This document shows, one piece after another, positions 22,012-24,510 of a DNA stretch of 64,000 nucleotides. The notes under the pieces are model-generated. The model saw only the letters and a program-made list of their open reading frames with translations. It made no database searches and was not told where the DNA came from. Source of the stretch: Natronosalvus rutilus (GTDB taxonomy: Archaea; Halobacteriota; Halobacteria; Halobacteriales; Natrialbaceae); contig NZ_CP100355.1 in assembly GCF_024204665.1 (NCBI RefSeq), forward strand, positions 1,779,451 to 1,843,450, read 5' to 3'. The position numbers and the translations under genes are program-made. The number at the start of each line of letters is the position of its first letter. Position 1 is the stretch's first letter.

Positions 22012-22422
22012 TTACACTTGTGTCTCGTAGGACTCGAGTACCGTCAGCAGTTCCTGACCCAGGTCGCCGGTGGCGTTCCGAATCCGATTCGTTTCGGGGT
22101 CGCGGACGACCATCCCACACGCTTCCAGTTTCGGGAGGTGGACGTGATGGAGCGCCGTTCGGACGCGTTTTCTGTGCTCACTGTCTGCTCGATCCGTATT
22201 CCGTAGCGCTTCGGCAACCCGGTCCGCAAGCGCGTCCATCTCCATCGCCTCTTCATCGGCGAACTCTAACGTTCGAAGAATAATTCGACGCTGTTCGCTG
22301 GCAATTGCCAGGAGAACTTTGTCGGGAGGATTTGGTTCGCTGCTCACCGGTGAACTGGTTCTCGTCGCCTCTCCCCCGATACCCAATCCTGCCGCGCTCG
22401 ACTTGCTCGACTGGCGATCCAT
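22012..22422 (-). CDS. DUF7344-type winged-helix regulator
   Basis: The 136-aa product has an ArsR-like core: KVLLAIASEQRRIILRTLEF, then a recognition-helix region (KRVRTALHHVHLPKLEACGM) and a wing (VVRDPETNRIRNATGDLGQE). Such small haloarchaeal winged-helix proteins are presumed transcription regulators. The ATG at 22422 is chosen over an upstream GTG. It is the first of three regulator genes in this region. Confidence 0.75.
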   Translation of the reverse strand: MDRQSSKSSAAGLGIGGEATRTSSPVSSEPNPPDKVLLAIASEQRRIILRTLEFADEEAMEMDALADRVAEALRNTDRADSEHRKRVRTALHHVHLPKLEACGMVVRDPETNRIRNATGDLGQELLTVLESYETQV

Positions 22423-22483
22423 ATCCACACATTACCGGGTGAGAAGTGTGAGGATTCGCCATGATGTACGAGGGAACCCGATC

Positions 22484-23140
22484 TCACGTGTCATCCTCGG
22501 AGGGGATGAGCGTGTACGTGACGAGCGCCCCGATCGCTCGGCGGAGTCGTTCCGTAACGGCCTGATCGGAAATCTCGAGTTCGTCGGCGAGTTCCTTGGT
22601 CGTACAGCCTCTCGGGATGTCGTAGTAGCCCATCTCCACGGCCAACGTGATCGCTTCCCGCTGGGGACCGGTCAGGCCGTGCCACGGACCGGCTTCTGGT
22701 TCCGTCGGGTTGTACACGCGAGCCACTTCCAGCGAGATCTGTGCGTCCTCACAGCGGGTCGTGAACTCGCTGAGGGCCGTGTGATCGGGGAACCGCAGTT
22801 CGAAGGCCCACGATTCGGGTGTCCCGGTGGCACTCAAGAGCTGGCCCTCGGTTTCTCTGATTCCCCGAAAGAGGTGGTCCTGGTTCGCGTCCCAATCGAG
22901 CGTGAAGAGCGTCCGGTCCTCGAAGACGTCGACCTCCGATGCGTCGTTGACGGTCGGGTGGCGTTTGACGGCGTCGACAAACGAGCCTCGCGTCGAGTTG
23001 TGGATCCAGAAGAGGGGAACGGTGGCCTCACCGATCGGCACGAGGTTCTCGAGTTCGATGGACGTAATCCCCTCGATGTGCAGAATCCGCCCGAGTTCGA
23101 AGTCGGCGGAGGGGATTCGGAATTCTGCGATCACACTCAT
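22484..23140 (-). CDS. Bat-like regulator with C-terminal HTH_10 domain
   Basis: The 218-aa product has an N-terminal alpha/beta domain of the bacterio-opsin activator type (MSVIAEFRIPSADFELGRIL, ending near 150). Its C-terminal HTH_10 domain has LTGPQREAITLAVEMGYYDI, TTKELADELEISDQAVTERL and a final helix. HTH_10 proteins are haloarchaeal one-component transcription regulators. The start is 16 bases from a long dyad (23156-23204), suggesting autoregulation. It is a divergent paralogue of the gene at 23423. Confidence 0.85.
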   Translation of the reverse strand: MSVIAEFRIPSADFELGRILHIEGITSIELENLVPIGEATVPLFWIHNSTRGSFVDAVKRHPTVNDASEVDVFEDRTLFTLDWDANQDHLFRGIRETEGQLLSATGTPESWAFELRFPDHTALSEFTTRCEDAQISLEVARVYNPTEPEAGPWHGLTGPQREAITLAVEMGYYDIPRGCTTKELADELEISDQAVTERLRRAIGALVTYTLIPSEDDT

Positions 23141-23155
23141 AACTCGCTCTCGTCA

Positions 23156-23204
23156 CCATGGTTAGCCATGCCGGTACAAAACTAGGTGGCATGGCACACC
23201 ATGC
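23156..23204. promoter_or_regulatory. 49-bp dyad with four CATG half-sites (candidate operator)
   Basis: The arm at 23156-23172 (CCATGGTTAGCCATGCC) and the arm at 23188-23204 (GGCATGGCACACCATGC) are inverted repeats matching at 14 of 17 positions. The CATG cores start at 23157, 23167, 23190 and 23200, so pairs are ten bases apart. It lies where the promoter of the leftward HTH_10 gene should be. Binding by that regulator is inference. Confidence 0.6.
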
Positions 23205-23422
23205 TCTACCGAGATTAGAATCGGGAAACCGTTTCCCCGCTTCGAAATCCCACTGCTCAGAGCACCGATCGTGCTCATACTGCTATTACCTGTCACACCG
23301 CGTCTCTAAACTGCCATTACCCGGGTCGCCACGTCGTCCTCGAACCGCCATTGTCGGACTGCTGCGTCGTGGCTTGATACATCACCCACACCGGTTATTC
23401 GTCGTCCCGACGAACTGGGAGT

Positions 23423-24064
23423 ATGGCTACCGTGCTAGAATTCACGAGTCCAGCAGAGGAGTTTCCGCTGGGAACGATATTCGAAAACTTGCCGGGGGTC
23501 ACGGTCGAACTCGAGCGACTCATCCCGCACGAGACCCTGATCATCCCCTACTTTTGGATCCGTGGCGCGGAGGCCGAGGATATTGAAGCCGCCTTCGAGG
23601 CTCACGCTGGCATAGTCAGCGTCAACCTCGTCGACAGCGTCGACAGCGAGTTTCTCATGCGGGCGGAGTGGGAGGAGTCGTACTTCGGTATCCTGAGCGC
23701 GCTTGCCAAGACCAATGTCGCCGTTCTCTCCGGGATCGGGACGAGAGACGGGTGGCGTTTCGAGGTTCGAGGCGAAAGTCGCGGCGCGATCAGCGAGTTC
23801 CGAACCAGTTGCCAGGAACATGACATCCCCATCGAAATCACTGCCGTGCACGCGTTACTCCCGGTACAGGGCGACGGTTACGAGTTGACTGACCCCCAGC
23901 GAGAGGCGCTGGTGCTGGCCTACGAGCGGGGTTACTTCGATTCGCCACGAGAAGCGTCGCTCGAGGACGTTGCCGACGAACTTGGGATCACCCAGCAGTC
24001 GCTTTCGTCCCGACTCAGACGCGGCCATCGCCGTCTCATCGGCGCAACGCTCGCTAATCCGTAG
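23423..24064 (+). CDS. Bat-like regulator with C-terminal HTH_10 domain
   Basis: The 213-aa product is a paralogue of the gene at 22484. The N-terminus (ATVLEFTSPAEEFPLGTIFE, then LIPHETLIIPYFWIRG) aligns with VPIGEATVPLFWIHN of that protein. The HTH_10 domain has LTDPQREALVLAYERGYFDS, LEDVADELGITQQSLSSRLR. It is transcribed away from its paralogue with a 282-base shared upstream region. It probably acts as a DNA-binding regulator; the target is unknown. Confidence 0.85.
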   Translation: MATVLEFTSPAEEFPLGTIFENLPGVTVELERLIPHETLIIPYFWIRGAEAEDIEAAFEAHAGIVSVNLVDSVDSEFLMRAEWEESYFGILSALAKTNVAVLSGIGTRDGWRFEVRGESRGAISEFRTSCQEHDIPIEITAVHALLPVQGDGYELTDPQREALVLAYERGYFDSPREASLEDVADELGITQQSLSSRLRRGHRRLIGATLANP

Positions 24065-24156: not shown

Positions 24157-24510
24157 ATGATTGATACACAGGCCGGTGTCGAGTTGGCATCGATGGCGTT
24201 TCATCCGGAGTCGGAAACGTACAGAGCCGAGTACGACCAGACTTCAGTCTCTGCGAGCATGGCCGTCGTGGCGGTACTCTCGGAGGTGATGGATGTCGAT
24301 CCAGTCGAACTGGAACCACTTCACGCGTCCGTTAACACCGGTGCCCTCGACAATCTTGCCCGCGTTCGAGACGGGACGGGAGAGGGGGTTTCGATCACGT
24401 TTCGGGTAGCGACGTACGCGATAACCGTCTCCAACGACGGTACGGTCGCGCTCACTTCGCGAGAGCAGACGGGAACGGACGGCGTGACCGAGGGAGTGTC
24501 TCCCGTATGA
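24157..24510 (+). CDS. HalOD1 output-domain protein
   Basis: The 117-aa product has the haloarchaeal output domain HalOD1: SASMAVVAVLSEVMDVDPVE, LEPLHASVNTGALDNLARVR, then VSITFRVATYAITVSNDGTV. This domain is found in haloarchaeal signalling proteins; its biochemical activity is unknown. The stop overlaps the next start as ATGA (24507-24510). A TATTAATAT patch near 24095 is a possible promoter. Confidence 0.75.
   Translation: MIDTQAGVELASMAFHPESETYRAEYDQTSVSASMAVVAVLSEVMDVDPVELEPLHASVNTGALDNLARVRDGTGEGVSITFRVATYAITVSNDGTVALTSREQTGTDGVTEGVSPV

Follow-up and report, generated by a model that had tools for sequence, protein, structure and literature searches.

The HTH_10 regulator encoded by gene A probably controls itself and its neighbors from a predicted palindromic site in its promoter, since most of the relatives that were compared carry a near-identical site ahead of A. 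What matters is a 14-bp palindromic unit with the consensus CWTGGTNNACCAWG, two copies of which, termed D and P, flank a TATA-like TTTTGTAC in the window, i.e., the whole stretch of 64,000 nucleotides of Natronosalvus rutilus DNA that was analyzed (Table 1). The core conserved among the relatives is TGGTNNACCA. D is positioned 8 bp upstream of TTTTGTAC, exact in the window, and P is located downstream of the TATA-like element, 3 bp from it and 33 bp from D. In the promoter of the divergent paralogue B, the site CTTGATACATCACC is degenerate: relatives carry CATGGTACACCACC-like DNA, which is altered here to TGATNNATCA with the spacing kept. Judged by sequence comparison, autoregulation of A together with cross-regulation of B is well supported.

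Table 1 Features of the gene A/gene B locus, in window coordinates
Feature	Position	Strand	Description
Site D, CATGGTGTGCCATG	23190..23203	-	14-bp palindrome spanning -63 to -50 relative to the gene A start; candidate activating dimer site (UAS)
Site P, CATGGCTAACCATG	23157..23170	-	Second copy, position -30; candidate negative-feedback site
TATA-like TTTTGTAC	23174..23181	-	Conserved element of the gene A promoter, in the dyad spacer
Gene A	22484..23140	-	Regulator of 218 aa with BAT and HTH_10 domains; recognition helix ISDQAVTERLRRAI; candidate binder
Gene B	23423..24064	+	Divergent paralogue of 213 aa with BAT and HTH_10 domains; recognition helix ITQQSLSSRLRRGHRR
B-proximal site, CTTGATACATCACC	23373..23386	+	8 bp upstream of TTAT in the B promoter
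Weak copy, CCTCGTACATCATG	22460..22473	-	In the gap separating A from the DUF7344 gene, at -51 to -38 relative to the ATG at 22422
DUF7344 protein	22012..22428	-	Downstream of A; conserved neighbor; GTG start at 22428, ATG at 22422 possible
HalOD1-domain protein	24157..24510	+	Downstream of B; conserved neighbor

The initial annotation had described the region as a single 49-bp dyad with four CATG half-sites, located between two paralogous Bat-like regulators and including the TATA region of the leftward gene. The layout is as claimed: two 17-bp arms (23156-23172 and 23188-23204) pair at 14 of 17 positions across a 15-base spacer, each arm holds two CATG sequences ten bases apart, TTTTGTAC falls within the spacer on the minus strand (23181-23174), and the flanking genes both encode HTH_10 and BAT domains and share 35% mutual identity. 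A bare dyad of this quality is unexceptional for a window of such size; a search for dyads with at least 14/17 paired positions and a spacer of 10-20 bp returned nine overlapping matches at four places in the window, whereas 100 shuffles averaged 3.5 and gave at most 12, and the dyad was absent from the output of a repeat search of the window. Both copies of CATGN6CATG that the window contains fall within the dyad (shuffle mean 0.25); two or more occurrences anywhere were obtained in 2 of 100 shuffles, and a pair at most 60 bp apart in none of 300 dinucleotide shuffles. The argument is built on the recurrence and conservation of the 14-mer, not on the long dyad. Each arm of the dyad is itself palindromic, and the parse as one long dyad was abandoned for two separate 14-bp palindromes because the 14-mer recurs at differing spacings in the relatives: the 33 bp between D and P in the window compare with 27 bp between distal and proximal copies at loci without a neighboring B (18 pairs), and the distance from A-site to B-site at loci with B is mostly 93-97 bp. 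CATG was likewise rejected as an essential core, since the relatives often have CTTG or CAAG at the outer positions.

Relatives of A were collected at E ≤ 1e-60 from 391 genomes of the class, which gave 148 genes in 124 genomes and 51 genera with 45-100% identity, and the upstream DNA of all 148 was read for the pattern CATGGTNNACCATG within 200 bp. As expected of an autoregulatory operator, different species retain the site in the promoter of the regulator itself, where it is present with at most two mismatches at 133/148 loci (57 of them exact) versus 11/148 for the reversed pattern. The remaining loci comprise eight with three mismatches and seven with four or more; two of these seven have little upstream DNA, and one of the two is a pseudogene. 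Two A genes have in-frame stops, L017 in genome G004 and L162 in G204, and G004 keeps an exact site at -59, beside the broken A and an open B frame.

The site is furthermore specific for the A locus. Allowing one error, CWTGGTNNACCAWG has 192 copies in 794 kb of A loci, compared with 7 for the reversed control. The exact 14-mer pattern occurs 83 times across the 391 genomes: 60 copies are situated just upstream of an A start (51-164 bp), three more within 0.4 kb downstream of A, and 20 away from the A locus, versus 21 for the reversed-pattern control. By a mechanical count, 16 of these 20 overlap open frames that are 100 aa or longer. Of all 83 copies, 75 were located directly (52 upstream of A), and eight were taken from a per-genome table and placed at A promoters. 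Among the matches listed for 41 genomes, one-mismatch copies number five in genome G000, with two for the control. The excess of exact copies at the A locus argues for a local, self-directed regulator.

The position of the site within the promoters is equally constrained. The loci were classified as type I (65, by any opposite-strand B match) and type II (83, without a neighboring B); the matches at L103 and L075 are merely weak, downstream ones, which leaves 63 loci with a true divergent B. The A promoters of type I carry the site (up to three errors) at -66 to -50 in 64 of 65 cases, and TTT is found at offset +23 from the site in 63/64 of these and in 36/45 type II proximal sites, with a background of 1.7%, so that the shared layout consists of the site, 8 bp, and then TTTTGTAC or TTTA. 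The B promoters, from which the adjacent B of L047 (in pieces) was excluded, have the core with at most one mismatch at -46 to -49 in 67/79 cases, and 57 of these 67 have TTAT 8 bp past the 14-mer. At type II loci the better copy is the distal one (-90 to -77) in 48 cases and the proximal one in 22, the two are equal in three, and neither has three or fewer errors in ten; all 18 distal-proximal pairs mentioned above are spaced by exactly 27 bp. The suggestion of the initial annotation that the region may be an auto- or cross-regulatory site of the HTH_10 pair thus gains strong support from conservation upstream of A orthologues, the check that it proposed, and of B. Of the two sites, D alone is widely kept, and P is present mainly in near relatives of A: a copy with up to three errors at the same spacing as P was found at 13 loci, i.e., 12 of the 15 with an A at least 76% identical, and one other. 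The gap between A and the DUF7344 gene holds a core with at most one mismatch in 17/61 cases (0-2/61 for four control patterns), and no TATA-like element is present 8 bp from this copy.

Protein A belongs to both PF15915 and PF04967, with 64.5 bits for HTH_10 (cut-off 23.1) and 40.4 bits for BAT (cut-off 25.8). The Pfam search gave just these two domains and no PAS or GAF domain, which sets A apart from Bat proper. Homologues of A number 36 at E ≤ 0.001 in the genome of the window. Structure prediction for A (17 sequences, mean pLDDT 78.6) gave two beta-alpha-beta-beta-alpha-beta repeats and a C-terminal HTH. An initial Foldseek ranking, composed mostly of gyrase rows with an rmsd of about 27, was set aside; re-examination of the Foldseek matches showed that residues 1-145 align with Ta1207 (5m86; Z 11.1, rmsd 3.0, 137 residues aligned). 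The C-terminal HTH resembles sigma region 4 (SigD) and DosR-type domains with Z scores of 5-8, a likeness to be read as compatibility, since Z scores below 8 are common and may reflect just a common arrangement. Sequence searches for solved relatives of A returned none that was convincing, the best being GerE (E 0.025).

In our judgment, it is fairly likely that A would bind the sites as a dimer and activate itself and B, possibly also the DUF7344 gene, with P limiting expression in the lineage of the window. Composed of two ACT/ferredoxin-like repeats and a sigma-region-4/NarL-like HTH, A would sit on CWTGGTNNACCAWG as a dimer with one recognition helix per 6-bp half-site. From D, directly upstream of the BRE and 8 bp from the TATA-like element, it would aid the assembly of TFB/TBP and thereby exert positive autoregulation; the same geometry would enable it to turn on B, its divergent paralogue, and the next gene, encoding the DUF7344 protein, may be activated as well. 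P, a weaker site with the TATA-like element on one side and the start codon on the other, would be filled when A is abundant and then block initiation, and it probably adds negative feedback in the lineage of the window.

An opposite regulatory sign, whereby A would repress itself by hindering TFB at the BRE from D and by blocking the start region from P, is rather unlikely. Against it, D does not cover the TATA-like element, from which it keeps a constant distance of 8 bp, as does the site of the B promoters, and GvpE elements beside the BRE, as described in PMC4390858, need a comparable short distance for activation. Self-repression is nevertheless in keeping with the location of P past the TATA-like element but ahead of the start codon, and with the negative elements described in PMC6085418. 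In the sptA promoter of Natrinema sp. J7-2, according to that source, a positive effect is exerted by one semi-palindrome located upstream of the TATA box and a negative one by SPS2, which overlaps it and covers the BRE, while a semi-palindrome at the start site acted negatively in some of the tests; also cited there is the phaRP promoter of Haloferax mediterranei, where a semi-palindromic element directly preceding the BRE is negative. Owing to these negative elements near the BRE in phaRP and sptA, the position of D is in itself no proof of activation. Activation by A, i.e., positive autoregulation via D and cross-activation of B, is favored by the GvpE-like layout, in which the element is placed beside the BRE at a strict distance.

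With respect to the binder, the conserved site is linked to A rather than to B. In genomes without B (threshold for presence at least 64% identity, list compiled by hand), a site with no more than two mismatches is retained at 54/64 A loci (5/64 for the control), and the recognition helix of A, [IV]SDQAVTERLRR in 122/145 proteins with near variants in the other 23, differs from the helix consensus of both B (ITQQSLSSRLRR) and B2 (ISQQAVASRLRR); L116, L151 and L162 are excluded from the helix tables. These observations speak against B, or an A-B heterodimer, as the binder, and such a reading, in which the site would mark cross-regulation by B, is improbable. It would account for the presence of the site before 67/79 B genes, as given above, among which are 7 of the 12 solitary B genes examined (core with at most one mismatch); A was found in three of the five genomes in which solitary B lacks the core. 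B without A at E ≤ 1e-45 occurs in three genomes. In G156 and G292, which belong to the same genus and have a B 82% identical, the site is absent, against B as the binder, whereas B of G098 (locus L190) has a good site, CATGGTACACCACC, in a genome where the best match to A is 37% identical. G098 is the clearest contrary case to binding by A, and reflects either a recent loss of A or another binder. The site was absent from the eight B2 genes among the matches listed (best 4-5 mismatches) and from 14 other HTH_10 genes (L016, L018-L030; best 3-5 errors), of which L022 fits the bare core with one mismatch. The nearest of the 14, L016 (46% identity), has the helix ISAQAVTERLRR and lacks the site, which is a single case; L150 and L160 retain VSDQAVTERLRR in the absence of the site, so loss of the site is not generally explained by the helix. 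If the binder were a third, unlinked global regulator, other targets should exist, and the exact copies away from the A locus do not exceed the control level, which makes this very improbable. A chance palindrome in a CATG-rich stretch might be entertained because bare 14/17 dyads are not rare in the window; because 124 genomes show the site to be conserved in sequence, position and spacing, this has already been refuted for practical purposes.

Most of the loci with divergent B (63/148) share a conserved island made up of A, DUF7344, B and HalOD1. Type II loci have instead, in 63/83 cases, a divergent acidic protein of about 65 aa encoded about 217 bp upstream of A (e.g., -423 to -222 relative to A in L014), two of which were tried against Pfam and gave no match. 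A PAS histidine kinase is present at 18/83 type II loci, which hints at a link between A and a sensor kinase. At L134, L145 and L163, for example, a PAS-HisKA-HATPase kinase follows behind the small divergent gene.

A second HTH_10 subfamily suggests a lead toward a rule for the family. Three HTH_10 genes of another subfamily, used as negative controls, were found to share a common upstream element, and most members of this ISDSAVSQRLRRGL subfamily have the helix [IV]SDSAVSQRLRRGL. Among its 22 members (L018, L236-L256; 194 genomes), 20 are preceded by a CTTCGATATCYAAC-like element with at most three mismatches (reversed control 2/22), mostly 150-210 bp before the ORF start as used; TCTTGTAA-like DNA comes 8 bp after the element, and 16 of the 20 elements have T[TC]TT at +22, i.e., the same 14+8 geometry. 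Its specificity away from these loci is poor, with exact copies in at least 83 of the 194 genomes when just 22 hold a member, so that the argument for this second motif comes from promoter conservation. We tentatively put forward, as a possibility a little short of even, an HTH_10 code in which the promoter of each subfamily would hold its own 14-bp palindrome 8 bp before a TATA-like element, with the half-site read by the recognition helix.

Haloarchaea possess tens of HTH_10 homologues, and to our knowledge few HTH_10 binding sites are known. If such a code were true, the specificity of this large family could be read from the promoters of its own genes, and the two sites flanking the TATA-like element in the lineage of the window would constitute a self-limiting switch. 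One HTH_10 subfamily now gains a predicted site, a paired helix, a distance to the TATA-like element and candidate targets (A, B and perhaps DUF7344), whereby HTH_10 recognition and the action of these proteins on TFB/TBP become directly testable.

Bat is of the HTH_10 type, and the UAS of the bop promoter is close to the TATA box. The Halobacterium protein activates bop and has a C-terminal HTH, as A does, but carries PAS and GAF domains in addition, where A has just BAT and HTH_10. NarL binds paired half-sites in a 7-2-7 arrangement, and the half-sites of the present palindrome are likewise split by 2 bp. The HTH fold of A is like that of NarL/FixJ/LuxR proteins and sigma region 4; the A system is, however, archaeal and TFB/TBP-dependent, and the N-terminal part of A is Ta1207-like. 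NarO is presumably tied to the denitrification motif CGAAYATDKTYG. As described in PMC11218638, NarO is without PAS and GAF domains, a feature that A shares, and the Haloferax denitrification promoter motif is an imperfect palindrome whose regulon includes a bacterioopsin-activator gene; it occurs in 82 promoter regions of Haloferax mediterranei, and that source describes its binder as undisclosed. Both elements are palindromes, but neither D, P nor the consensus CWTGGTNNACCAWG corresponds to CGAAYATDKTYG, and the exact site described here is confined to its own locus.

Five site strings gave no match in the literature searched, and none of the papers listed deals with this site as judged by title and start of abstract. 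A parallel in promoter architecture is provided by GvpE, a dimeric activator for which, according to PMC4390858, UAS_A and UAS_D of divergent promoters are placed directly beside each BRE, and the short UAS-BRE distance is essential. GvpE is leucine-zipper-like and its UAS consists of two 8-nt boxes split by 4 nt, whereas the present site is a 14-bp 6-2-6 palindrome with an HTH_10 protein as its candidate binder; it is the place beside the BRE alone that the two have in common. Autoregulatory operators and palindromes linked to HTH_10 proteins are both kinds of element that are already known.
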